Shown one piece after another: positions 475-58,552 of a stretch of DNA of 60,147 nt. The stretch's first letter is position 1, and each line of letters opens with the position of its first letter. Below the pieces are notes generated by a model. It was not told the origin of the DNA. It was given only the letters and a program-made list of their open reading frames with translations, and made no database searches. This DNA is from an uncultured Clostridia bacterium. Its GTDB lineage: Bacteria; Bacillota; Clostridia; Christensenellales; Borkfalkiaceae. The position numbers and the translations under genes were made by a program. The stretch covers positions 1 to 60,147 of the forward strand of contig CANRIO010000003.1 in the NCBI GenBank assembly GCA_947630605.1, given 5' to 3'.

Positions 475-3400
475 TTAAGCAAGCGTAATTCGGTCGGAGA
501 CGGAGCGGACGAACACCCCCTTCTCCTCCCCATAAGAGATGCAGTCGCGGAGGAACACGAGGGCGCGTTCGGTCGGACGGATCTCGCGGAAGACGCCCGA
601 GACGACGGCGGCGACCTCGTCCATATAGAGGGCGACCCGATCCTCGAGCGCGCCCTTCACGAGGGAGACGACCTCATAGACGGTGAAGTCCTCCTCGTTC
701 TTTCTCACGGAAGGAGCCTCCCCTTCCACGCGGAATCTTCCCAGCTGGATGGCGCGGGGAGTGCGGTAGAAGTAGTCCACGCCCATCGCACGGTCGCGGT
801 TGAAGCCGCAGGAATCGATGAGTGCGTCGAGGCGGGCCTCCACCTTGGAACCGCTCCGCTCGATGCCGAAGCTCTGCAGACAGCGTTTGCGCAAAAAGGC
901 GCGGGAGATGGGCTCTTCGCTCGCGACGATCTCCTTGAGACGGGCGACGATGGCGGGGTCATGTTCTCCGCCCGTGACGAAGGCGGACGTTTCGCTCGCC
1001 GTCGCCTTGACGGTCTTATAGGGCCGCTTATACTTGGAGAGCCACGCGTCCCCCCGCTTTTCATCCCCCGTGAGGCGGTCTAAAACGTCCTTGATGCGCT
1101 TGAGCTCGCGCTTGGGGTTGTTGTAGTAATTGACGGTGTTGAGGCGGAGGATGTTCCAATTCCCCCGCTTGAGCGTCTGCACCTGCAGGATGTTTCTGTC
1201 CTTGACGGAGAAATGATTGGGCCCGTCGCAGAGGATTCCGAGGATGAAGCGGCGCTTGTTCCTCGGGTCGATGACGGCGACGTCCACCTTGAAGTCGGAG
1301 GCGCCCACATCCGAGCGGCAGTCATAGCCGTAGCCCGCGAGCTCGGCGGCGATGAACTTGCCGATGCCCGTCCCCGTGCGCACCGTGTCCGACTTGACCG
1401 CGAGCATGGTGCGGCCCTTTTCCGCAAATTCCAAAAATGCCTTGAGCCCCGCGACCCCCTTTGAAGAGGTCCTGTTGAGGTCGATCATGGCGGAGGTCAT
1501 CGTGGAGAAGACGAGCATCTCCTCCCTTGCACGCGAGACGGCGACGTTGAGCCGCCGCCATCCGCCCGCCTGGTTGAGGGGGCCGAAGTTGAGGGAGACG
1601 CGGCCGAGACGGTCGGGGCCGTAGCAGACGGAAAAGAGGATGATGTCGCGCTCGTCCCCCTGCACATTCTCGAGGTTCTTGACAAAGAGCGGTTCCTCCC
1701 GTTCATAGGCGGCGCTCTCGAGGCCGAGGCGGACGATCTCCTTGGAGAGCGTCTTTTCGATGTCCTCCTGCTGTGCGCTCGAGAAGGTGACGATGCCCAT
1801 GCTCGAGCGGGAGAGGACGGGGTCGGCAAGCCTTCTTGTGACCTCTGCGACGAGGGCCTCCGTCTCGGCGCGGTTGCGCTTTGTGAAGCCGCGGTCGTAT
1901 GTCCCGTTCACATGGATGAACTTCACCTTGCTCTCCAGCCCGTCGGGGGAAGGGAAGGTGCAGAGGCGGTTGTCATAATACATGCCGTTGGAGAAGGCGA
2001 TGAGGCTCTCGTGCTTGCTCCTGTAGTGCCAGAGGAGATGCCGCTCGGGCATGCCGAGGGCGAGGCAGTCGTCGAGCACGCTCTCGAGGTCTTCATTCTC
2101 GAGGTCGTCCTCATCGGTATATGCCGCATGGAAGAAGGAGGTCGGCGGGAGCTGTTTGGGGTCGCCCACGACGATAGCGGCCTTGGCCCTTGCGATCGCG
2201 CCCACCGCTTCCGCCGTCAGCATCTGGGAGGCCTCGTCGAAGATGACGAGGTCGAAGGCGTCCGCGGTCGGCTGGAGATACTGTGCGACCGTGATGGGGC
2301 TCATGAGAAGGCAGGGACAGAGCACCGCGGAGAGTGCGGGCAGTTCGGCGAGCATCGTGCGGATGCCCGAGCCGCGCAGATTGCTGCGTGCAAAGCGGTT
2401 GAAGGCGGCCAGCTCCAAAGAGAGGCTCCCCTCCTCGTCCTCAGCGGGAAGGCGGGATAGAAGCGTCTCGCGGATGAGCGTGCGCGTCAGCTTTCCGTAC
2501 TCCTCCCATGCGAGGCGGAATTTCTCCACCGTGTCCTCCAAAGTCCCCACCGTCATGCGGGAGAGGGCGGCATCCTGCGGGATGGTGATCTCGAGGAAGT
2601 TCTTATAGACGTTCTTCTCGAAGCCCGCGAGGACGTTCTCCACCTTGAGGCGGCCGCTCTCGAGGGAATCGGAGATAAAATTGAGCCCGAGAGAGGCGAG
2701 CTTTTTCGCCGTCGCACGGTACATGCACCAATTGGGGAGCATGTCGACGTTGTCGATGAGGGCGGAGGCCTTCGTGTAGAAGTAGTCCAGAGCGTCCTCC
2801 CCCTTCACCTTCTCGCGGCTGCCGTGCGTGATCTTCATGAAGCTGTCCTCCGCCGCGAAGTAGGCGTCCGAGGCCTTCAGAAAGCCCTCAAGCACGGGCA
2901 TGGTATAGCCGTTTGCCGCGCGGATACACATTCCGTTGAATGCGTCCGCATTGAAGTCGAGGAAGGCTTCATTGGCGAGGGCGTGCAGTTTGTAGAGTTT
3001 CTCGAGGAACTCCCCGCGCTTTTTGAAGATGATGTGCCCCGTGCGGTCGCAGAAGGCGGAGGAGAGCTTCGTATTCGTGCGGATGCGCCCCACGGCGCCG
3101 TCGATGTCGACGAGCGTCTGCAAAAATTTGGGGACATCCTCATCGTTGAGTTCGTGGATGGCGACCTTTGCGAGCTTCTTTGCCGCCGCCCGCGCCGCCT
3201 TCGAAAGCTTCCAATCGCCGCCGCCCTCGAGCAGTTTCGCGACCTCCGCCGCGTCGTCGAGGTCGACGAGGGAGCGGAAGTTCTTGAAGTAGTAGGCAAG
3301 GCAGGTGTCCAGCCTGCGGTTGGCGTTGTAGAAGAGGTAGAAGGCCCCCTCCTCCTGCCCCGCAAAATACTTTTTGCACTCGCCCGAAGAGAGGATCTTC

Positions 3401-6069
3401 GCGATCTCCGCAAGGGAGAGAAGTTTCTTCCGCGTGAGGGTGGAGACGCGCTGGCGGTAGAATTCGAGGAAGAGGGCAAGATAGGAGCGCAGATGCTTGA
3501 TCTCGGTGAGGACGACCTCCGAAGCGCAGAGGATGCGGTCGCGCACTTCCTGCGAATATTCGGTGAGATTGACGTTCTCGAAGGGGGAATTGAAGACCCC
3601 GCCGCACTCCTTTGCCGCCGCCGCCGCAGAGAGGATCATGCTCTTGCAGCGGGAGAGTTTTTCCTCGGTGAGGGTGTCGTAGAAGGCGGTCTCGATGTCG
3701 AGGATGTCGGGCGCGGTCTTGTTTTCGAGATAGCCGAGCACCGCCCCGTAGACGGAGATGCCGAGACGGCGTTTTTTGTGCAACGCCTCCATCGGCTCCT
3801 TGAGCTCCTCGCGGAGGGCGACGAGCTCTCTCGTCTTCTCGCCGAAGCCCGCCTCCCGCGCCTTCCCGCCGAGGCCGAGCGTCGCCTCCATGCGGCGGAG
3901 GACATCCCCTTTGTCCGTCTTGTTGGAGTGCAGCTCGAGGCAGAATTCGCCGATGCCGATCGCGTCCAAACGCTTTTTGACGACGTCGAGCGCGGCCTTC
4001 TTTTCGGCGACGAAGATGACGCGTTTGCCCCGCATGAGGGCGTTTGCGATGATATTGGTGATGGTCTGGCTCTTGCCCGTCCCGGGAGGGCCGTGGAGCA
4101 CAAAGGAGGCACCCGTGTTCGCGAGGGAGATCGCAGAGAACTGCGAACTGTCGGCGGGGAGCGGGAGAAGCACTTCCTCGGGATCCGCCGCATCCTCCTC
4201 CGCCGCGGCGGGCGTCTTGCGCCGCTCCGCCCTTCCCGCGAGAAGGTTCGCCACGTTCTCATTCTTCTTGAGGGCGCCGATGTGGGTGCGGATGTCGTTC
4301 CAAAGGAGGAATCTCTGGAAGGAGAAGGCCGCGACGAAGGCGTCCTCCACGACCTCCCAGCCCTTCATGCTCGCCGTCTCGGCACGCACCATGGCCACGA
4401 TCTCGGAGATCTTGAGGGCGGAGACGTCCCCGCCGAGGCCGCGGATGTCGATGTTGAATTCCCGCTTCAGAAATTCGAGCAGGGTGGCGTTGACCAAAAA
4501 GCCCTCCTCCCCCGCCGTGAGGGAGAAGTCCTCGTTGCCCTTCGCACGGGTGATCCCGACGGGGACGAGAACGAGGGGGGCGAACTTGGGCAGGCCGTCC
4601 TCGCGGCTCACATATTTGAGGAAGCCGAGGGCGAGATAGAGGATCTTCGCGCCCGACTCCTCCCCCGCCTCACGGTTCTTGCGGATGAGCTTTAGGGCGG
4701 TCTCCGACGCCGATTTGACGGGTTCGAGGACGCGCAGCACCCCCTTTCGCTGTTCGAGGGCGATGAGCGCCTTCTTCTGCGGGGAGATCTCCGCCCCGAT
4801 CTTTGCCTCCTCGCCGCCCGCTTTGAGCTTCATGCTCCCCTCCTCCATGAGGCGGGAATAGAGCATGTCGCACCCCGCGGAGGAGAGGTGCAGGGCGTTC
4901 TTGCCCGTAAAGACGAGCAAAGCGTTCTTGCCCGTGAGGTCCAAAAGCCTTCGCTCCCACTGCTTGTTCTTGGGCTGTTTGCCGTCGAGCCTGAGCCCCT
5001 TGAAGACGGGAAGAGGCGTGGGAGAGCCGTCCTCCTGTTCGTTTTCGTAAACTTCATAGCCGTCGAGGCCCTTCCCGCGGGTCGGGCAGACGGGGATCCC
5101 GCCCATGCGGCAGCGCTTCACATCCACGAAGATGTCGAAGTGCTCCTCCTTGAGCTTGGCGCGGAAGTGGTGTTCGGAGGGCGTGAAGAGCGCATTGCTG
5201 TCCACAAAGAGATCGGCGGCGTCGAAGAAGCAGAGATTGTTGATGCCGTCTGCGACGTATTTGGAGACGATGTCGCCGTCGTCGGTGACGGGGTCCAAAA
5301 AGCAGGTATCATACAGCCATGCGCCCACGCCGACGCTCTTTTTGCCGAGGGCGATGACGGGGTGCAGGCCCGCCCCCTCGATACAGCCCGCCGCGAGCAG
5401 GGCGATCTGGAAGAGGGAGGCGCTCCTCCCCTTTAAGACGGAGCCCTCCTTGGCGGCAGAGATCGGCTGCGTCAGATCGCATGCCTCCTCCGAGATACCG
5501 TGCGCCTTGACGGAGGCATAGACGGCGGCGACGATCTGCCGCACGGTGTTCTTATCCGTCCCCGTGTAGCCGTAAAATTCGGCGTCCGCCCTCCACCGCT
5601 TGAGCCTTCTCCCCGCATCCGTTAAAATGACGGAACAGTCGGGAAGGCGGGGCCGCACGAAGCAGGCGACGCGCTCGGCATTGCCCGTTATCCCCTCCCA
5701 TACGTCGAAGGGAAGCACGGTGAGCTGCGTCTCGGCGGAGGCGACGACTTTATTTTCGTGGCGGGCGGCAACGTTTACCGTGACAGAGCGAAATTCGCTG
5801 TTTTCGGCGAGATACAGCGGAGAAAAGATGCCGCTCTGCTCGATGCGGACGGTGCTTTCGAAGGGAACCTCCACGCTCTTTTCGAAGGGTAGAAGAAGGC
5901 CCCCCTCCGAGGTCGCCGAAACGGTGAGGGGAAGCGCCTCCTCGAAGGTGCTCCTGATACGGATGGACGCGGGCGTCGCGAGGAGATAGTCGAGATACCC
6001 GACATACTTCGGAAAGCGAAGGTCGAGCGTCACTTTTTCATCGATACGGATCTTCTTTTTTACTGCCAT
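475..6069 (-). CDS. Giant SF1-type DNA/RNA helicase (DUF4011/AAA_11-AAA_12 core, MTES_1575-like restriction-endonuclease-fold segment, DUF3320-like C-terminus)
   Basis: 1864-aa ORF; Walker A GPPGTGKSQTITNII, Walker B LVIFDEASQ, motif GDPKQLPPTSFF, C-terminal FKVDVAVIDPRNKRRFILGILCDG. Confidence 0.85.
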   Translation of the reverse strand: MAVKKKIRIDEKVTLDLRFPKYVGYLDYLLATPASIRIRSTFEEALPLTVSATSEGGLLLPFEKSVEVPFESTVRIEQSGIFSPLYLAENSEFRSVTVNVAARHENKVVASAETQLTVLPFDVWEGITGNAERVACFVRPRLPDCSVILTDAGRRLKRWRADAEFYGYTGTDKNTVRQIVAAVYASVKAHGISEEACDLTQPISAAKEGSVLKGRSASLFQIALLAAGCIEGAGLHPVIALGKKSVGVGAWLYDTCFLDPVTDDGDIVSKYVADGINNLCFFDAADLFVDSNALFTPSEHHFRAKLKEEHFDIFVDVKRCRMGGIPVCPTRGKGLDGYEVYENEQEDGSPTPLPVFKGLRLDGKQPKNKQWERRLLDLTGKNALLVFTGKNALHLSSAGCDMLYSRLMEEGSMKLKAGGEEAKIGAEISPQKKALIALEQRKGVLRVLEPVKSASETALKLIRKNREAGEESGAKILYLALGFLKYVSREDGLPKFAPLVLVPVGITRAKGNEDFSLTAGEEGFLVNATLLEFLKREFNIDIRGLGGDVSALKISEIVAMVRAETASMKGWEVVEDAFVAAFSFQRFLLWNDIRTHIGALKKNENVANLLAGRAERRKTPAAAEEDAADPEEVLLPLPADSSQFSAISLANTGASFVLHGPPGTGKSQTITNIIANALMRGKRVIFVAEKKAALDVVKKRLDAIGIGEFCLELHSNKTDKGDVLRRMEATLGLGGKAREAGFGEKTRELVALREELKEPMEALHKKRRLGISVYGAVLGYLENKTAPDILDIETAFYDTLTEEKLSRCKSMILSAAAAAKECGGVFNSPFENVNLTEYSQEVRDRILCASEVVLTEIKHLRSYLALFLEFYRQRVSTLTRKKLLSLAEIAKILSSGECKKYFAGQEEGAFYLFYNANRRLDTCLAYYFKNFRSLVDLDDAAEVAKLLEGGGDWKLSKAARAAAKKLAKVAIHELNDEDVPKFLQTLVDIDGAVGRIRTNTKLSSAFCDRTGHIIFKKRGEFLEKLYKLHALANEAFLDFNADAFNGMCIRAANGYTMPVLEGFLKASDAYFAAEDSFMKITHGSREKVKGEDALDYFYTKASALIDNVDMLPNWCMYRATAKKLASLGLNFISDSLESGRLKVENVLAGFEKNVYKNFLEITIPQDAALSRMTVGTLEDTVEKFRLAWEEYGKLTRTLIRETLLSRLPAEDEEGSLSLELAAFNRFARSNLRGSGIRTMLAELPALSAVLCPCLLMSPITVAQYLQPTADAFDLVIFDEASQMLTAEAVGAIARAKAAIVVGDPKQLPPTSFFHAAYTDEDDLENEDLESVLDDCLALGMPERHLLWHYRSKHESLIAFSNGMYYDNRLCTFPSPDGLESKVKFIHVNGTYDRGFTKRNRAETEALVAEVTRRLADPVLSRSSMGIVTFSSAQQEDIEKTLSKEIVRLGLESAAYEREEPLFVKNLENVQGDERDIILFSVCYGPDRLGRVSLNFGPLNQAGGWRRLNVAVSRAREEMLVFSTMTSAMIDLNRTSSKGVAGLKAFLEFAEKGRTMLAVKSDTVRTGTGIGKFIAAELAGYGYDCRSDVGASDFKVDVAVIDPRNKRRFILGILCDGPNHFSVKDRNILQVQTLKRGNWNILRLNTVNYYNNPKRELKRIKDVLDRLTGDEKRGDAWLSKYKRPYKTVKATASETSAFVTGGEHDPAIVARLKEIVASEEPISRAFLRKRCLQSFGIERSGSKVEARLDALIDSCGFNRDRAMGVDYFYRTPRAIQLGRFRVEGEAPSVRKNEEDFTVYEVVSLVKGALEDRVALYMDEVAAVVSGVFREIRPTERALVFLRDCISYGEEKGVFVRSVSDRITLA

Positions 6070-47400: not shown

Positions 47401-48672
47401 TCATGCCGCCTCTTCCGAGGCGGCTTTTATATTGCGGACTTCTGTCCCGAGGAGCACTTTCTTCTCGAAAAGCTCGCGGGCGAGGGCGTCGAGGAAGGCC
47501 CTGTTTTCCGTCAGGATCTTCTTGGCGCGAAGGTAGCAGCGTTCCAGCTCGACGGACACGGCGGCGTCTCTCGAATCCGTGATGCGATCCCCGCTGCCGT
47601 TTGTCAGGTATTGCGAAAACCCTCTGCCCGCATAGTCGTCCACGAGCCGTAAGACGATCTCGGAGGCCCGGTGCAGATCGCTTCCCGCACCCGTATCGAC
47701 CTCGCCGAAGACGAGCTCGGTCGCCGCCTTTCCCCCGAGCAGGGAGATGACGCGGTCTTCCATGCATGTGGCAGAGGTGAAGTAGTCGGGCGATCTCGAG
47801 ACGGAGGCGATCCCGCCCGTCCTGCTGTTGTGCGTGCACACGGTGACAAGATTGGTGCTGCCCGGTTCGAGTACTTCGGCGATGACGGCATGCCCCGCCT
47901 CGTGATAGGCGATGCGCTTTTGTGCGGAGAGCGAAAAACTTTCGCCCTCATCCTCGGGGGCCTCGAAGATCACGCGCATGCAGGCACGGACGATGGCGTC
48001 CATGTCGATCTGTTCTTTGTTTGCAAACCCCGCGTAGATCCCCGCCTCGTTGACGACTCTCTCGAGGTCGGCGCAGGACTTCCCGTTGAGAATGCGCGCG
48101 ATCGCCTCGGTGTCGACGTCGGCAACGAACTTCTTTTTGGAGAGATAATGCGCGATGATCTCTTCGGCATCCTTCCCGTCGGGCGCGTCGATGTAGAGGA
48201 CGGCGTCGAACCTCCCCGAACGGAGGAGCGACTGCGGGAAATTGCGGATGTTGTTTGCCGTCGCGAGCACGAAGACGCGCATTCCCCGCGCGCCGTCGAT
48301 ACAGGACTGCACGGTGACGAATTCCTCGGAATTGGTGTGCTCTTCATCGTCGTTGGCAAACTTGTCGAGATCGTCCAAAAAGACAACGGCGGGAGCCTGT
48401 GCTTTGGCTTCTTCGAACGTCCTTTTGATCTCATCGACGAAAGCCCCGTCCGACTTCGCCTTCCGGCAGAGACAGACCTTCCAGCCGAGCGCTTCGATAA
48501 AACAATTGGCCATCGTCGTCTTGCCCACGCCGGGGTCGCCGTGGAGCATGAGGCCGCGCGGCATCTCCACCCCGAGGCGGGCGTATTTGTCGCCGTTTTT
48601 CAGAACGTCGCAAAGACGCTCTAACTCTTTTTTCACACTCTCGTACCCGATCACCTTGTCAAATGCTTTCAT
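47401..48672 (-). CDS. Soluble FtsH-like AAA+ ATPase/M41-type zinc metalloprotease
   Basis: Walker A HGDPGVGKTTMANC; VVFLDDLDKFA; SRH-like LLRSGRFD; HEAGHAV; no TM helices at the N-terminus. Confidence 0.9.
   Translation of the reverse strand: MKAFDKVIGYESVKKELERLCDVLKNGDKYARLGVEMPRGLMLHGDPGVGKTTMANCFIEALGWKVCLCRKAKSDGAFVDEIKRTFEEAKAQAPAVVFLDDLDKFANDDEEHTNSEEFVTVQSCIDGARGMRVFVLATANNIRNFPQSLLRSGRFDAVLYIDAPDGKDAEEIIAHYLSKKKFVADVDTEAIARILNGKSCADLERVVNEAGIYAGFANKEQIDMDAIVRACMRVIFEAPEDEGESFSLSAQKRIAYHEAGHAVIAEVLEPGSTNLVTVCTHNSRTGGIASVSRSPDYFTSATCMEDRVISLLGGKAATELVFGEVDTGAGSDLHRASEIVLRLVDDYAGRGFSQYLTNGSGDRITDSRDAAVSVELERCYLRAKKILTENRAFLDALARELFEKKVLLGTEVRNIKAASEEAA
47405..47430 (+). terminator. 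Terminator of the XRE gene, located inside the 3' end of the convergent FtsH-like CDS
   Basis: GCCGCCTC-ttcc-GAGGCGGC-TTTTAT. Confidence 0.8.
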
Positions 48673-49028
48673 GTATATGTATATTCCTCACTATAATTTT
48701 TTTCATAGGGAAATTTGGCGCGCAAAGGGCGGATGGCGGAAGAAGGGTGGGCCGCGCTCTTGCGTTGTAACGGCATTATAGCACATCGATATGCCCAAAC
48801 CAGACTAAAATACGTCCCAAAATTGTCACATGAGGCATTTTTCTAAAATTTTTTTGAGTTAAATTTCTCCACGCGCCACAACTGAATTTACGATTGAGAG
48901 AAAACATATGGCAACAGGCCGGAACGCCTCACCCTGCCAAGGCGGTTTGAAAGCGCCATCCCCCCCCTCGGCGTCGATACAAACAAAACCAAAGTCATCT
49001 ACACGGAAAATTAAAATACCAACGCAAA

Positions 49029-49062
49029 AGAAGCCGGGAGTGTGCTCCCGACTTCTTGTTTT
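49029..49062. terminator. Terminator hairpin downstream of 49064-49336
   Basis: AGAAGcCGGGAG-tgtg-CTCCCGaCTTCTTgtttt. Confidence 0.75.
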
Positions 49063-49063
49063 G

Positions 49064-49336
49064 TTATGAGCGGGGAAGCATCCCCGAAAACAAGAATGCC
49101 TTCGCCTCGATGGGGCGGATCCCCTTCGAAGCGGCCGCCGCCATGCAAGTCGTGTTTGTGCCGAAAAATCTCTTCGCCCCCCTCTCGACGACGACTACGG
49201 GGAACGAATACGTCTCCGCCGTCAGCCCCTGCACATTCCGGTATCCGTTCCGGGTGAGCAGGTCAAAGAGCCTCTGCGCCTCGTCCTTCCCGCTGTAACG
49301 GACAAGGACCTGTCCTTCCATTGTCTTGGTTTCCAT
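49064..49336 (-). CDS. Uncharacterised ~90-aa protein under riboswitch control
   Basis: METKTMEGQVLVRYSGKDEAQRLFDLLTRNGYRNVQGLTAETYSFPVVVV...; RBS aggaggg upstream; alternate start at 49342. Confidence 0.75.
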   Translation of the reverse strand: METKTMEGQVLVRYSGKDEAQRLFDLLTRNGYRNVQGLTAETYSFPVVVVERGAKRFFGTNTTCMAAAASKGIRPIEAKAFLFSGMLPRS

Positions 49337-49370
49337 TTTCATTCCCTCCTATACTCACCGCAAGAGGCAC

Positions 49371-49397
49371 GAAAAAAGCCCATCGTCACGATGAGCT
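49371..49397 (-). terminator. Riboswitch-controlled intrinsic terminator
   Basis: AGCTCATCG-TGA-CGATGGGCTTTTTTCG on the minus strand. Confidence 0.85.
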
Positions 49398-49399
49398 TG

Positions 49400-49510
49400 A
49401 ATTTCCCTTCTTTCCCATCGTTCAGCCATTAGCACCTTGCCTTCCCGGGCAGGTTGCTGTGCGGTCTTTGGGGCTGTCCCTCGCGCAACTCTCTATGGTG
49501 GTGATTTGAT
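49400..49510 (-). ncRNA. S-box-like (SAM clan) riboswitch aptamer
   Basis: Minus strand CCATAGAGAGTTGCGCGAGGGACAGCCCCAAAGACCGCACAGCAACCTGCCCGGGAAGGCAAGGTGCTAATGGCTGAACGATGGGAAAGAAG; GAGGGA...GCAACC...GGC/GCC stem...AAGGTGCTAA core. Confidence 0.75.
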
Positions 49511-49519
49511 TGTAGGTGT

Positions 49520-49548
49520 ATCTTATCCCCTTTTTTGCTCTTTGTCAA
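49520..49548 (-). promoter_or_regulatory. Promoter of the riboswitch transcript
   Basis: TTGACA-17-TAAGAT. Confidence 0.85.
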
Positions 49549-49573: not shown

Positions 49574-50365
49574 TTATTTGCAATATTTCCCGGTAAACTC
49601 GTCAATGACGGAAAGAAGCTGCTCATCGAGATAGCGGCGGGCAAGCGCCCCGGAAAATCCATCTATGCCGAAGAAGGCCTCGGCGACGCCGCCGACCATT
49701 GCCGCGATCGTGTCCGAGTCCCCGCCCATGGAGACGGCGAGGCGCACGGCGTCTTCGAAACTGTCCGCTTCGAAAAAACACTCCATCGCAATGGGCACGG
49801 TGCCCCGGCATGTCTCGTTGAAGGGCATCCGCCGCTCCCGCCATTCGTCGCAAGAAATATCAAAGGTATAATACTTCTCGAGATACTTCTTGATCTCCTC
49901 CTTCGTCTTTCCTTGCCTCGCAAGAAAACCCGCCCCCGCCACGGCGACGGCGCCCTTTATGCCTTCGGGGTGGTTGTGCGTGACTTCCGCCGAAAGTTTT
50001 GCGAAATGCTCCGCCTCCTCAAGGCTCTCCGCAAACCATATGACGGGCGAGACGCGCATCGCGGAGCCGTTGCCGAAACTGTTGTACGGCCCCATGCTCT
50101 CATCCGCCGCCCATCTTCCGAACATTCCGCCGTAACCGCCGTAAGGATAGCGGTTCACATACTCTCTTAAAAGGCGGACAAGCTCGCTCTTGAAGGGTTC
50201 ATCCCCCTTCCTTCCGCACCGAAGAAGGGCCTCGGCCACCGCCACGGTGCAGACGGTGTCGTCCGTAAAGCGGCAGTTGTTGCTGAAAAAGGCAAAATCC
50301 TTCCGGTAGATGTTGGCAAACTCAAAGCGGCTGCCAACGATGTCGCCGATGATCGCACCCCACAT
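49574..50365 (-). CDS. ADP-ribosylglycohydrolase family protein
   Basis: GAIIGDIVGSRFEF; FTDDTVCTVAVAEALL; GNGSAMRVSP; SMGGDSDTIAAMVGGVAEAFFGI. Confidence 0.93.
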   Translation of the reverse strand: MWGAIIGDIVGSRFEFANIYRKDFAFFSNNCRFTDDTVCTVAVAEALLRCGRKGDEPFKSELVRLLREYVNRYPYGGYGGMFGRWAADESMGPYNSFGNGSAMRVSPVIWFAESLEEAEHFAKLSAEVTHNHPEGIKGAVAVAGAGFLARQGKTKEEIKKYLEKYYTFDISCDEWRERRMPFNETCRGTVPIAMECFFEADSFEDAVRLAVSMGGDSDTIAAMVGGVAEAFFGIDGFSGALARRYLDEQLLSVIDEFTGKYCK

Positions 50366-52299: not shown

Positions 52300-54033
52300 C
52301 TACTTAATGAACTCCCAACAACAGCTATCGAAACTGAAAATCGAGCGGATTGCGCAATTTTTCAATTCGTCCGCGTTTCGACCTAATTTACCATAAACTC
52401 CGCCGGTTTTATCAAAACTCACTTGTGGATCTTCTTCAATTAAAACATACCAACCGCTGTAAATGTTATGCACGATAATGCTGTTGTTTGTTCTTTCGTT
52501 CCACAACTGAAAAATTGTCTTTCCCGGAAGCTGTACTTCTTTATCGAACTTATTCGTTACTATTTTACCATTTTTATTGTATGTAATGCCGACTATTGTC
52601 TCATCTTCTTTTTCTACGTTAACGACGGACGAGAGATCTTCGTAAGTTTGGATCTTCGATTTTCCAAAACAAGACGCGCAGTAGCATAATTCTCCGTCAA
52701 TATCTGCTTCGCTTTCGATTCGATAGTCACAATACCAGCATTCAATATCTTCAATGCTATCTGAATAGAGCGGACACGCAACATACGAATGAAGTACGCC
52801 TTGTCCGGCCCCATCAATAGGCTCGCATACCTTCAATAACATTTCTTTTACTTTAGGTATTTGCTCGTGACATATCCATTTCTTTTTCATGCAATCTATT
52901 TGCAAAATGTATTCCATTTCCGATTCGGTCACACCGTCTTTTGCCCAAGACAAATCAATTTCGGCTATATTATACCCTTCTCTTTTTAACCTATTGCTCT
53001 CCTTTTCATCCGTGCTTGACTTGATGCGAACAAGAAGCGCGATACAACTACCGTCTGTGCAATGCAAAATGATGGATTTCGGAATGCGCGATTTCCCTTC
53101 ATAGCAATACTCACATTCTTGAAATTCCTCAGTCCAAGATTCTCTGATAACGATTCCTCTGCCCGCTGTCGGTAAGATTATAGTGGGCAACTTTATTTTT
53201 TTCACCGTCTCAAATTGTGATTTTATCAGCCCAAATAATTCCCCGCCTGTCCTATATAATTTTACCTCAATAGTTGGATCGGAACCATCGGCTCTCGGGA
53301 AGTTGAATGGATTACTCTTTGAGGCAGGAATAGATTTTTGTGCCTGTTGCCGTGTCGCATCTGGTTCTTGCAAAGCGATTTTTTCTGCCCCATTCGGAAA
53401 CGCTATTGGGGCGTTTGAAGCCTCTGCGCTATATGTCGGCGAACCTCTTCTGTATATCCATTCGCCCAATGTGCCGCCCGATGATGTCTTGTCGCTTTTC
53501 GCCCAACTGAGCATTCGTTCCAAGCTTAAAGCCGCTTCTTCCTTGCTGACTGCGCGCATCCACTCAAAATCTCGACAGATTTCACTTTGCTTCAAAATAG
53601 AAGGATCTCTTAAAAAATCTTCAATACTGCCACACAAAAGTATAATTTTCTTCGCAGTGATAGGATTCAATAATATATTCTCAAGTTTTGTGACCCATCT
53701 AAGATTTTCAGGACGATTGTTTCTTCGGTTTGTATCTACATGATCGACAACATGCTGAGGCGAAGGCGCCGGCCCATGAAATGCCGTCGCAACTATTCTA
53801 TGTACAGCTTCACCTGCAATTTTAGCATAGCCTGTTTGGGCGTCATATTTCCCAAAAGTCCAAAAATTATCTGTCGGACGAGGTTTTTTCCCAATAGGAG
53901 TGTAACGCAAAACAGCTCCGTTATCACGGACAGAATAAGTTTCCCCTTTATATGTACACTCGATCTCGTTTTCAAAATCGTCTATCATTTGGATATCATT
54001 CCTGTTTGGGCTAAGGGTTGTATGCTGCACCAT
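52300..54033 (-). CDS. NUMOD4/HNH endonuclease fused to a CoiA-like, zinc-binding C-terminal region
   Basis: GEAVHRIVATAFHG...VVDHVDTNRRNNRPENLRWVT; CEYCYEGKSRIPKSIILHC; YNIAEIDLSWAKD; CWYCDY...CYCASC. Confidence 0.7.
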   Translation of the reverse strand: MVQHTTLSPNRNDIQMIDDFENEIECTYKGETYSVRDNGAVLRYTPIGKKPRPTDNFWTFGKYDAQTGYAKIAGEAVHRIVATAFHGPAPSPQHVVDHVDTNRRNNRPENLRWVTKLENILLNPITAKKIILLCGSIEDFLRDPSILKQSEICRDFEWMRAVSKEEAALSLERMLSWAKSDKTSSGGTLGEWIYRRGSPTYSAEASNAPIAFPNGAEKIALQEPDATRQQAQKSIPASKSNPFNFPRADGSDPTIEVKLYRTGGELFGLIKSQFETVKKIKLPTIILPTAGRGIVIRESWTEEFQECEYCYEGKSRIPKSIILHCTDGSCIALLVRIKSSTDEKESNRLKREGYNIAEIDLSWAKDGVTESEMEYILQIDCMKKKWICHEQIPKVKEMLLKVCEPIDGAGQGVLHSYVACPLYSDSIEDIECWYCDYRIESEADIDGELCYCASCFGKSKIQTYEDLSSVVNVEKEDETIVGITYNKNGKIVTNKFDKEVQLPGKTIFQLWNERTNNSIIVHNIYSGWYVLIEEDPQVSFDKTGGVYGKLGRNADELKNCAIRSIFSFDSCCWEFIK

Positions 54034-54065
54034 TGGACTCCTTTTTGTAACATTACATTTTCAAA

Positions 54066-55406
54066 TTAAGACGCTAAATGAGATTTCGCGCAACCGATCA
54101 AGCGTGAAAGCTCATCCGCCATAAACAGCGGGACATTCAGAACGTTGCCGTCTAAAGAAAGATTTTTGAGGGACAAACGAACGGCGAGGGGCGTTTCGCG
54201 CTCGTACTTCTTTCTGTAATTTTTTAGACTAACCGACGAAATGTTTTCTCCCGCCTTCACCTCGACGGGGATTACATCGTTCTCCTTCTGAATTACAAAA
54301 TCCACCTCATAAGGCGCTTCCGCCCAATAGTGCGGGGCGCTATCGAACTGCCGCAGCAGACTTTGCAACACAAAATTCTCGGTGAGGGCGCCCTTGAACT
54401 CGGTGAACAGGCGATTCCCCTCCGCAAACGCCGTGTGGCTCAGCCGTGCTTGCCTTCGCAACAGTCCCACGTCACCGTGATAGATCTTAAACGAATCCAA
54501 GTCCTCATATGCCGAAATGGGCAGTGCGGGTTTTGCGATCTTGAATACCTTCTTCGCGAGGTCCGCATTCACGAGCCATTGCAGAGAATCCTCGTACTCT
54601 CTCGCACGCGCCCCACCCTTCACGACGGAATACAAAAATTTTTTGTTCTCCCGTGCGAGCTGTGACGGAAGAGAGTCCCAGATCAGAGTGATCTTCTGCA
54701 CATCGTGCCGCTGCCATTCATCCGCATCGTCATGATGCTTGCCGAAGTCCCGCTCATACGAGCCGAGGAGGTCGTCGAGCGCCCGATCCACAAGCGCAAC
54801 GTCCCGCTCCTGCGTCCATCGAAGCACCGGCTCGGGCATTCCGCCCGTCACAAAGTACATTTTCAGCTTTTCGCACAACGGATTGAAGAAGGCGTCGGGG
54901 ATGGCTTCGATCGCATGGATGCTTTGCTGGTACTCATACAGCCCCTCGTCCCCGTTAGCGATGAGAAATTCCGAGAAGGTCATCGGACCCATGTCGAGGA
55001 AGTCCACCTTCCCGACGGGGAATCCCTTGGAGAGCGTCAAGCCGAGCAGCGACCCCGCACAGACCACGAAATACTCGCTTGCGTTCTCGCAAAAGTACTT
55101 CAGAGCATTCAGCGCGCTGTTGCAGCTTTGGATCTCGTCGAAGATGATGAGTGTCTCCTTCGTGATGCGTTGCCCGCTCGCAAAGGATAAGTTTTGCAGA
55201 ATGCGCTCAACGTCCTTCGTCGTCTCGAAGAATTGCTTATACTCCTCCGACTCATCGAAGTTGAAATAGGCAACGCTTTCAAACTCCTTGCCAAATTCTT
55301 TCAATGCCCATGTCTTGCCGACCTGCCTTGCCCCGCGTAAAATAAGCGGCTTGCGGTATTTCGATCGCTTCCACTTCCTCAATTCATCCAAAATAAAGCG
55401 TTTCAT
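54066..55406 (-). CDS. AAA_14/DUF4143 family ATPase
   Basis: KPLILRGARQVGKTWALKEFGKEF; LIIFDEIQSC; VVCAGSLLGL; IPVEVKAGEN. Confidence 0.93.
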   Translation of the reverse strand: MKRFILDELRKWKRSKYRKPLILRGARQVGKTWALKEFGKEFESVAYFNFDESEEYKQFFETTKDVERILQNLSFASGQRITKETLIIFDEIQSCNSALNALKYFCENASEYFVVCAGSLLGLTLSKGFPVGKVDFLDMGPMTFSEFLIANGDEGLYEYQQSIHAIEAIPDAFFNPLCEKLKMYFVTGGMPEPVLRWTQERDVALVDRALDDLLGSYERDFGKHHDDADEWQRHDVQKITLIWDSLPSQLARENKKFLYSVVKGGARAREYEDSLQWLVNADLAKKVFKIAKPALPISAYEDLDSFKIYHGDVGLLRRQARLSHTAFAEGNRLFTEFKGALTENFVLQSLLRQFDSAPHYWAEAPYEVDFVIQKENDVIPVEVKAGENISSVSLKNYRKKYERETPLAVRLSLKNLSLDGNVLNVPLFMADELSRLIGCAKSHLAS

Positions 55407-55550
55407 CGGCGATCCCTCCTTCACGTCTAGTTGCTTTTATTATACTCCGATTTTACTTTTCGTCAATCCGATTGCGCCGATTTTTTCAAAATTATGTGAT
55501 TTTTCTCACGGAATTATATAAAATTATGTGATTGTAGCTTCTATATCCTT

Positions 55551-56309
55551 TTATTTGGTATAAAATATTTCCTCCATCCAATGCGAAAAATGATAAACAT
55601 TTGCTTGTGTAAGACAATGATCGGAATACAAATTTATAATTACATCATCATCGTCGAAAAGATCAAACACCCAATCTTTCCAACCATCTTTAGCTTTTAG
55701 TTGTGGATCACTTTCAATCAAAAATTCCGATTCGTCTGCAATTAAGAGGTAGATAATCTCTTCCATGGGGCTATGCGCCCTCATATCCGCCCCCCCTCTG
55801 GCAATGGCCCGCAAATGAATCAGCCTATCTCTCATCGAATATAAAAACTCATAATTGTATTCCATAAGGAATTGGGGCGGAAGTATGGAGGCCAACCACG
55901 AAGCGTCCAGCTCTCCGATGTGTGTGCCTTTCGGGTTTGACGAAAGCGCTTCCAAATCTTCTTTGATGTAGTCCAGCAAAATATCGCTTCCTACCGCAAA
56001 GGAAATCGCGGCGATCTTTCCGAAATTCTTTTCCAGATAACTCGACCATGCTTCATGTGTCCGATAATCTTCCAGTTTGAAAGAATCGTTTTCTTCGTCT
56101 TCGACCGGTAATAATTTCCAATTCAAGGCCCTGCAAACGCCCTTACCCTTATCTTGACGGATGGATTCCCCCGCCTCGTAACGGCACCACGTCTTGATAC
56201 CGACCCCCGCTTTTCGCGCCGCCTCTTCGATCGTCAATCCCAACTCGTTTCGCCTTGCCTTGATTTTACTCGCCAATTCCATGCTGCCGCCAATTGATTT
56301 CTGTGCCAT
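55551..56309 (-). CDS. XRE-family regulator with unknown C-terminal domain
   Basis: LASKIKARRNELGLTIEEAARKAGVGIKTWCRYEAGESIRQDKG. Confidence 0.85.
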   Translation of the reverse strand: MAQKSIGGSMELASKIKARRNELGLTIEEAARKAGVGIKTWCRYEAGESIRQDKGKGVCRALNWKLLPVEDEENDSFKLEDYRTHEAWSSYLEKNFGKIAAISFAVGSDILLDYIKEDLEALSSNPKGTHIGELDASWLASILPPQFLMEYNYEFLYSMRDRLIHLRAIARGGADMRAHSPMEEIIYLLIADESEFLIESDPQLKAKDGWKDWVFDLFDDDDVIINLYSDHCLTQANVYHFSHWMEEIFYTK

Positions 56310-56548
56310 AAATTCTCCTCCTTATATTGACATGTCATTATATTGTCATTTTATCATATATTTAGGAACATGTCAAGCATTTCAGAGAGAATTTACAGAA
56401 AAACTTTTTCTTCACAAGTTTTGGTCCGCATGACTCGTGGTAATTTTATGATAAAAGGGGTGAGTCGACTGGACTCCCCCCTTCTCATTTACAAAACATA
56501 TCAAATTGTCAACCACCATTTGGTTCATTCTTAGATTCACGCAATGGC

Positions 56549-58552
56549 TTAGAATCCCAATTTGTCGAATAAAACCTTATTTCTTTTCTTCGAATCGCTA
56601 ACCATCTTGTCATAAGACAATATTTCAATATGAGCATTATATCTCTGATTATAGCCAAAATAACCCATTCTATCAGGTGTCGGATGAAAAATGCCGTAAT
56701 GATCAAGTATGCCAATTAGTTTATCGTTTATGTCGCAAAGCGCATACAAGTAAAATTGCGTTGCCTCTGAAACGCGAATCGGACGCCCATCTTTATCCAT
56801 AGCTTTCCCAGACTTGATTTTATCGGCATACCTGTATAACTGTGAGATGGGATTATCTCCATCCGAATAATCGTTTCTCATCGGCTTTTTCAGTTCAAAT
56901 ATAAAAATCGAATTAAAGATAGATCCATCATTTGAATTTTCCGACATTGCAACAGGGCTATCCAAAATCAATATATCCGGGCGCTCTTCCTCTTTATCAC
57001 TATTAAATGGAATATCTGAACTGATATATGTAGCGTAGGCAAGTTTTTCATCGAGCAACCACAAATTGTGATTTTCGTATAATTGGTCATCGGAGGTCGA
57101 ACGCATCGGATATATTAAATCATGAATATATTTTTCGTTTTGATAATTGTTCGACGACCTTTTCTTACGAATAGCGTTTTCCAATAGATCCAATATCAAT
57201 TTTCTATGCGACACATATTCTGCAAGAACCGCCGCATTTGAATCACTGATTTTTTGAACCTGTTTTTGAAAACTGTCTCTGTATTCACGATCTGTGAGAT
57301 GTCCATCATTTAGCTTGTTCAACAAAGTAGCACTTTCCTTAGCGAGTTCCCTATCAAAATTATATTTTATCTGATACAATTCATCTGCCAACCTATCCTC
57401 GGATAAGTTAGGCTTGATTTTTCTGATGGCATCTTGCTTGTATTTTAATAAATGACGGAACTGCGGCGCAACATCCGTAACAAAACGCCGAATCATAGTT
57501 TCTTTTTCTTTGGCGATAGGCTCCAAAAATTCCATAAGGTATTTTTCAACCAATTCAGATGCTTTTTCTATAATTTCATCCATGGAAAGTAACGGCAATT
57601 CTTTTGCGACTCCCCCTTCTGGAATGCTGAAAGATAAGCGATTCATGTCAACATTTTCATTAAAGTATCTCCCGCTTAAAATACCAATATACCAAAAACC
57701 ATTTTTCTCATAGATTGATTTGTCAAGATTTGTTACATACTTGTCTAAATTACGTGTTTCGACCAAGCGGTCGTTCGCGCAGAGGAATAATTTGTTTCCG
57801 CTAAGACTAATCTCCTCCGCCTTAACGTGTAAGAGTTCAAATTCGCTGCCTTGGATCGTAAATTGTTTAATATTAGAATCTGTAAAAATTTTTTCTCTGC
57901 ATAGCTGGTTGAGATCGATGCACTCTTGTCCGTCAATTAACTCCACCTGGGGGCAATCTTTTGCAATGAAATATATCAAACAGTGTAGCAATATTCTATT
58001 GGCTATCGTAATTGCATTTTTGGGCAAAGATTTATCAAACGGCGCTTTTACATTTCGCAATTCAATGGAAGTAAAACGATCTTGTGCATCTGTATCAAAT
58101 GCACGATCTTCTATTTCTTCATGATTAACGGAAAATGTAAATTTTCTCTTAAAAAATTGTCCGCGCTGATAAAAAACGCTTTCCACATGGGCCGATTGAA
58201 AGGCAACCAGCCAAGAAAATCGCCCGACGCCTTTACCACCGTATTCTTCCTTATATGAGGAATCTGCCTCCATAAATGAATTCATATTATCATCGTTAAA
58301 CCCTATCCCATTGTCTTTGATTCGAAAAGAAACAATATCAGGTAACACGCCCGATGTGTCTAATACCATTTGACCATTACGAATTAGTTCTATTTGAATT
58401 TGAGGATTTTTATAAGTAGACTCCAACTTACGGCGTTCTTCAATCGCATTAAAAGAATTGACGATTGCCTCAAACACAGGGACCAGCGGCTGATTCTTGG
58501 GCAAGGGAAAGTTTTTAACTCGGCCTTTTACGCTAACTCCGAATTTTCTCAT
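56549..58552 (-). CDS. GHKL-type ATPase with PD-(D/E)XK-nuclease-like C-terminus
   Basis: VFEAIVNSFNAIEE; IVSFRIKDNGIGFNDDN; YGGKGVGRFSWL; C-terminal RPDILILDSP...FIFELKKP. Confidence 0.75.
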   Translation of the reverse strand: MRKFGVSVKGRVKNFPLPKNQPLVPVFEAIVNSFNAIEERRKLESTYKNPQIQIELIRNGQMVLDTSGVLPDIVSFRIKDNGIGFNDDNMNSFMEADSSYKEEYGGKGVGRFSWLVAFQSAHVESVFYQRGQFFKRKFTFSVNHEEIEDRAFDTDAQDRFTSIELRNVKAPFDKSLPKNAITIANRILLHCLIYFIAKDCPQVELIDGQECIDLNQLCREKIFTDSNIKQFTIQGSEFELLHVKAEEISLSGNKLFLCANDRLVETRNLDKYVTNLDKSIYEKNGFWYIGILSGRYFNENVDMNRLSFSIPEGGVAKELPLLSMDEIIEKASELVEKYLMEFLEPIAKEKETMIRRFVTDVAPQFRHLLKYKQDAIRKIKPNLSEDRLADELYQIKYNFDRELAKESATLLNKLNDGHLTDREYRDSFQKQVQKISDSNAAVLAEYVSHRKLILDLLENAIRKKRSSNNYQNEKYIHDLIYPMRSTSDDQLYENHNLWLLDEKLAYATYISSDIPFNSDKEEERPDILILDSPVAMSENSNDGSIFNSIFIFELKKPMRNDYSDGDNPISQLYRYADKIKSGKAMDKDGRPIRVSEATQFYLYALCDINDKLIGILDHYGIFHPTPDRMGYFGYNQRYNAHIEILSYDKMVSDSKKRNKVLFDKLGF

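Follow-up and report, generated by a model that had tools for sequence, protein, structure and literature searches.

We identified, on the minus strand of the window, a 60,147-nucleotide stretch of DNA from an uncultured Clostridia bacterium, a leader RNA of the SAM riboswitch clan that lacks helix P4 and precedes a small gene of no recognised family. The explanation that we consider highly probable is a P4-less, SAM-I-type OFF switch, acting by transcription termination on a one-gene cassette whose product is made in times of SAM scarcity, although the ligand is untested. The cassette would be self-contained, with a promoter, a riboswitch, the small gene and a terminator. We propose that plentiful SAM would hold P1 together, which would free the 5′ arm CUCAUCG for formation of the terminator and stop transcription. 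When SAM is scarce, the 3′ strand of P1 (CGAUGGG) would instead pair with the CUCAUCG arm as an antiterminator, the mRNA would be completed and the small alpha/beta protein would be produced, whilst a weak hairpin over the Shine-Dalgarno sequence may further damp translation. The aptamer core, the loss of P4, the retained SAM contacts and the mutually exclusive hairpins are read or predicted from sequence; SAM as the ligand and the direction of the switch are inferred, in the absence of ligand data.

The sequence-only reading of this locus had claimed a SAM-clan aptamer on the strength of the motifs GAGGGA and GCAACC. Both motifs are present on the minus strand, together with AAGGTGCTAA, and the assignment to the clan is upheld by an Rfam covariance scan, which placed a match to the SAM model RF00162 at 49501-49412 (minus strand; 44.3 bits, E 2.8e-9), and by R1, a covariance model built from the window aptamer's own relatives with the window copy included, which scored it at 93.3 bits (E about 1e-29). 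The Rfam clan filter retained RF00162 for the leader; RF01725 (SAM-I/IV) reached only 38.6 bits in the window, under its cut-off of 41.1. The window leader is the sole RF00162 match in the 1.34-Mb draft genome. With a curated cut-off of 44.4, the window copy is 0.1 bit short, and a scan of the whole window at the gathering threshold missed the riboswitch. Protein searches with the small gene recovered relatives in other Clostridia, and nine of those fetched carry an RF00162 match above the cut-off directly upstream of the gene (48.7-53.5 bits), so that the covariance-model check within the SAM clan is passed, with the window itself just below the line. The low score of the window copy is due to the complete deletion of P4: the P4 positions of the RF00162 model are deleted in the alignment, and only about 12 nt separate GGUGCUAA from the 3′ strand of P1, leaving no helix P4 between P3 and P1. 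The core of P1, P2, P2b and P3, with K-turn and pseudoknot, meets the membership test for RF00162. Strict SAM-I membership is ruled out by the missing P4 and, with a margin of 0.1 bit, by the cut-off; in its inferred action the RNA is like a SAM-I riboswitch. The folding energy of the window leader was uninformative against shuffled sequences (z -0.25). We have very little doubt that this is a SAM-type riboswitch with the expression platform listed in the table, ligand binding being inferred without binding data.

Table. Features of the riboswitch cassette in the window (positions counted from the first nucleotide of the window).
Feature	Position	Strand	Basis
Sigma-70-type promoter TTGACA-17-TAAGAT	49520-49548	-	1 found versus 0.3 expected by shuffling
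P4-less SAM-I-like aptamer (P1, P2 with K-turn loop, P2b, pseudoknot, P3)	49414-49499	-	RF00162 44.3 bits; R1 93.3 bits
P1: 49498-49495 (CCAU) with 49418-49415 (AUGG)	49415-49498	-	double changes at alignment columns 3/130
P2 and P2b, GA/GA K-turn positions conserved	49459-49489	-	alignment of relatives
P3, SAM-pocket nucleotides GCAACC / GGUGC	49431-49458	-	pocket positions identical in 91-94/94
Pseudoknot CAGC (49476-49473) with GCUG (49426-49423)	49423-49476	-	covariation, four pairs
Predicted antiterminator ACGAUGGG (49421-49414) with CUCAUCGU (49395-49388)	49388-49421	-	folding, pair probability
Intrinsic terminator AGCUCAUCG-UGA-CGAUGGGCU (49397-49377) and U-run (49376-49371)	49371-49397	-	sequence and terminator detection
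Hairpin, CCUCUU with Shine-Dalgarno AGGAGG	49345-49367	-	weak in window (z -1.2); clear in relatives
Shine-Dalgarno AGGAGG	49345-49350	-	read in sequence
Orphan gene of 90 aa (start 49342 would give 92 aa)	49064-49336	-	ORF, relatives, predicted fold pLDDT 86
Hairpin GAAGTCGGGAG-CACA-CTCCCGGCTTC then TTTT, probable transcription-unit end	49026-49055	-	read in sequence; plus-strand face detected by program

The absence of P4, and the membership of the window aptamer in a coherent and widespread P4-less group, had been overlooked by the sequence-only reading. At loci L002-L013 (12/12, L002 being the window's own), R1 scores exceed 90 bits each and P4 is missing in all; the exception is L014, a truncated gene remnant without a switch. 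Across 396 genomes of the order, R1 gave roughly 80 matches above 60 bits, and about 20 further matches lie outside the order in 388 genomes of the class. A pattern search found the aptamer in 16 viral contigs and a DNA search in Ruminococcus phage NatCom_28274; the leader sequence had no match in the plasmid collection. The aligned set holds 94 aptamers, of which 91 are distinct and underlie the covariation statistics. Standard pairs fill 91.8% of pair cells, 18 pairs change on both sides, pairs of P2, P3 and the pseudoknot covary, and covariation stands at 0.327, which shuffling lowers to 0.131 and sliding to 0.062 or less. The pseudoknot, left out of the R1 model, is 98% paired over the 91 sequences with double changes at 4/4 pairs, its variants including CUGC/GCAG, CAGC/GCUG, CAAG/CUUG and others.

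At what we take to be the SAM-contacting positions of SAM-I crystal structures, assigned by the numbering of the Tte (Thermoanaerobacter) aptamer, the aligned set retains U7, G11, C44, U57 and G58 in 94/94, A45 and C47 in 93/94, U88 in 92/94 and A46 in 91/94, and these positions are equally kept (91-94/94) in metK and non-metK members, which meets the SAM-I contact test. With SAM-I (S-box, RF00162) the group shares P1, the K-turn internal loop of P2, P2b, the pseudoknot, the P3 pocket and the SAM contacts, as well as an inferred terminator-type OFF switch and metK among the targets; it differs in the lack of P4, in its many orphan small-protein targets and in its occurrence in phages. SAM-IV (RF00634) likewise has no P4 and keeps the core and PK-1; it substitutes P5 and PK-2 for P4 (PMC6890682), and neither element was apparent on visual inspection of the aligned leaders, for which there is no separate RF00634 score. 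SAM-I/IV (RF01725) has the core in common with the window RNA and is otherwise its reverse: it has no P2 internal loop (PMC2864571), no PK-1 and a P4 (PMC6890682), whereas the window RNA has the P2 loop and no P4, and the RF01725 feature test is therefore not met. Neither a P4-less SAM-I group nor a phage SAM riboswitch was found described in the open-licence literature searched.

Conservation of the pocket also bears on whether the SAM-I scaffold was kept for sensing another ligand, such as SAH, spermidine or some other SAM derivative. The loss of P4 and the predominance of non-sulfur genes downstream could be taken in this sense, and spermidine-sensing SAM-I variants do exist, one of which precedes a metK (PMC10853860), so that the metK link alone is no proof of SAM sensing. 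These variants, known from 13 examples in Gram-positive genera such as Bacillus and in metagenomes, resemble the P4-less group in their SAM-I scaffold, their transcription-terminating OFF switch and their non-sulfur targets, but they are altered in J1/2 and the P3 internal loop (Salvail 2023, PMC10853860). In the P4-less group, with its 94 aligned aptamers from Clostridia, both of these regions keep their pocket nucleotides in 91-94/94, in metK and non-metK members alike, and the pocket change of the spermidine variants is not seen. We therefore judge a different ligand unlikely and retain SAM as the inferred ligand.

Downstream and upstream of the aptamer, the architecture proposed by the sequence-only reading was borne out. 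Its promoter is found at 49548-49520 on the minus strand, and TTGAC..TATAAT boxes lie at comparable distance in the relatives. Its terminator is likewise present, as is the repeat CGATGGG, which occurs twice, in the 3′ strand of P1 (49420-49414) and in the 3′ arm of the terminator (49385-49379). In the nascent window RNA, before the 3′ arm of the terminator is made, the antiterminator is predicted with a mean pair probability of 0.97; with the arm present, P1 plus terminator is predicted at -32.3 versus -26.9 kcal/mol, energies that include no ligand term. These values support the claimed OFF-switch arrangement, repression by SAM being an inference. In non-metK leaders, the helix between the 3′ strand of P1 and the leader spans 8.4 bp versus 6.4 bp when shuffled, and the antiterminator arm re-pairs as a terminator-like stem in 59/75; in metK leaders, the overlap between P1 and terminator barely exceeds chance.

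A second hairpin, missed by the earlier reading, covers the Shine-Dalgarno sequence. It lies 3′ of the terminator, often has a GGAA loop and precedes non-homologous genes. In non-metK leaders, the helix that pairs with the Shine-Dalgarno sequence measures 7.6 bp versus 4.6 bp when shuffled (35/55 at p<=0.05), with compensating changes, and the hairpin folds strongly in several relatives. Such evidence would suit a chiefly translational switch, in which control is exerted mainly at this hairpin and the terminator plays a secondary part. However, a hairpin past the terminator would not be transcribed at all once SAM has caused termination, and the window's version is weak, with no visible overlap with the aptamer; we accordingly hold translational control to be an improbable primary mechanism, and termination remains our preferred one. 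The GGAA-loop hairpin might bind a protein (CsrA-like GGA loop), or it might act as a second regulator.

The aptamers of the group precede several kinds of genes: about 30 of the 94 stand before metK, 16 before the window family, 10 before the VCG..VWF family and 5 before the VYVFIHSE family, and the further classes include FGase-like enzymes (PF05013) as well as a number of unnamed proteins. Relatives of the VYVFIHSE family (MRTIRQL..) stand behind viral copies of the aptamer. The downstream start sites were picked by a simple score of Shine-Dalgarno and length, and single assignments may be wrong. The orphan families are found almost only behind the P4-less aptamer. Profile searches of the 396 order-mates recovered 16 phage/VCG-family and 7 window-family genes, every one directly behind an aptamer (16/16 and 7/7); an eighth window-family match (20-bit, in a 640-aa frame) was taken as chance and excluded. 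This coupling carries the caveat that many of the 23 genes were first found via the aptamer, but about ten of the 16 phage/VCG genes were not in the profile. The small gene and metK follow the riboswitch in a row in two genomes (G333, G271), with an FGase-like gene between them in a third (G468, L215:808-3051), and in G306 the small gene is followed by an HPERxxGF protein. FGase-like genes are also found by themselves behind this type of riboswitch (L066, L087, L112, L152). At L041 (G100:C31), a short, divergent MetK of 268 aa lies under a P4-less riboswitch; it shares 68% identity with the phage MetK encoded on L178 and is possibly of prophage origin.

Phage copies add a second kind of neighbour. 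C5 and N-type DNA methyltransferases adjoin the cassette on phage contigs L173, L174, L178 and L180 and in phage L188, and a phage MetK lies near it in three cases (L178, L180 and prophage G415). Clusters of MetK with an N-type and a large C5 DNA methyltransferase by the cassette were observed in phages or prophage at L178:1336-5380, L180:4293-8885 and L220:8631-14682. Amongst the 36 host genomes checked, G415 alone (1 of 36) encodes a C5 methyltransferase at no more than about 10 kb from the switch, and on this count we reject, for chromosomal copies, a general rule that the cassettes adjoin methyltransferases. As far as comparison of sequences can establish, the protein families are tightly tied to the aptamer, some members being linked to metK or methyltransferases as well; the metK rows and the phage methyltransferase and MetK neighbours of related genes lend support to the earlier suggestion that the gene is linked to SAM metabolism.

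The ribosome-binding site and small ORF described earlier are confirmed, but the length of 92 aa probably is not: the better-placed start is the ATG at 49336, 8-9 nt from AGGAGG, and the nearest relative (L003) begins at the same METKTM. Searches of Pfam, NCBIfam, PHROG and PADLOC assigned the small protein to no family, and sequence and fold searches of the PDB with the window and phage/VCG proteins gave nothing credible and no solved relative. The AlphaFold models of the window and phage/VCG families (pLDDT 86 and 94) share the predicted order beta-alpha-(beta)-beta-beta-alpha-beta-alpha. Only this order joins the window family (A3) to the phage families, which sequence comparison did not do, and searches of viral contigs and phages turned up no member of the window family. 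Profile comparison shows the phage family to be homologous to the VCG family (hhalign 91%, E 1e-6); the phage-family protein had no match in the plasmid collection, and in a BFVD fold search it matched nothing but uncharacterised phage proteins, all of them weakly (best E 0.0097). An ordinary SAM-I riboswitch on a missed methionine or SAM biosynthesis gene, merely an unannotated small enzyme, would account for the RF00162 match and the metK-linked members. It does not sit well with the missing P4, with a protein that has neither a Pfam, NCBIfam or PHROG family nor a solved fold, with related families that are tiny, fast-diverging and partly phage-borne, or with the window genome's metK, which lies elsewhere (G000:C36) without a SAM-I match; we consider it rather unlikely. 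For the product of the P4-less switch, a small alpha/beta protein, whose role remains open, the guess with most support is that it acts in the methylation economy when SAM is scarce.

The window cassette sits in an accessory region with an ADP-ribosylglycohydrolase, an M41/AAA protein, an HNH endonuclease, a PDC-S01-like ATPase and an IS-type integrase core, and no recognised SAM or methyl gene lies near the window gene. The ADP-ribosylglycohydrolase is encoded just upstream of the switch (49574-50365), and in G768 (L151) such a gene stands directly behind the riboswitch. The M41 peptidase and AAA protein (423 aa, 47401-48672) resembles FtsH and the defence ATPase IetA. Positions 52300-58552 encode, in a row, an HNH protein of the homing type, a DUF4143 ATPase with a match to the candidate defence family PDC-S01 (E 2e-165), a helix-turn-helix protein and a GHKL-ATPase protein, and at 475-6069 a helicase-like protein of 1864 aa matches the candidate defence family PDC-S37 (E 2e-282). 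The locus could also be a decayed, non-functional cassette remnant, as the truncated, switchless copy in L014 and the apparent small-gene stubs between switch and metK in some f28 genomes would allow. Yet promoter, aptamer, terminator, Shine-Dalgarno sequence and ORF are all intact in the window, and its closest relative (G047, 74% protein identity) retains every element of the cassette, making decay very hard to credit.

The small protein may serve the SAM or methylation economy of the cell or phage, a possibility that we do not hold above even odds; it might, for example, modulate SAM-using or SAM-making enzymes or cover for under-methylated phage DNA. More tentatively still, the P4-less SAM riboswitch and the small alpha/beta superfamily may form an undescribed class of phage- or island-borne cassettes, sometimes in a row with metK, that act at SAM depletion and serve or counter DNA methylation and restriction in phage-host conflict. 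If this is true, P4 would be dispensable in a natural SAM-I-type aptamer, phages would bear SAM riboswitches beside methyltransferases and a SAM synthetase of their own, and several orphan protein families would be placed functionally through their sensor, the riboswitch being a direct handle on when these unknown genes are on.
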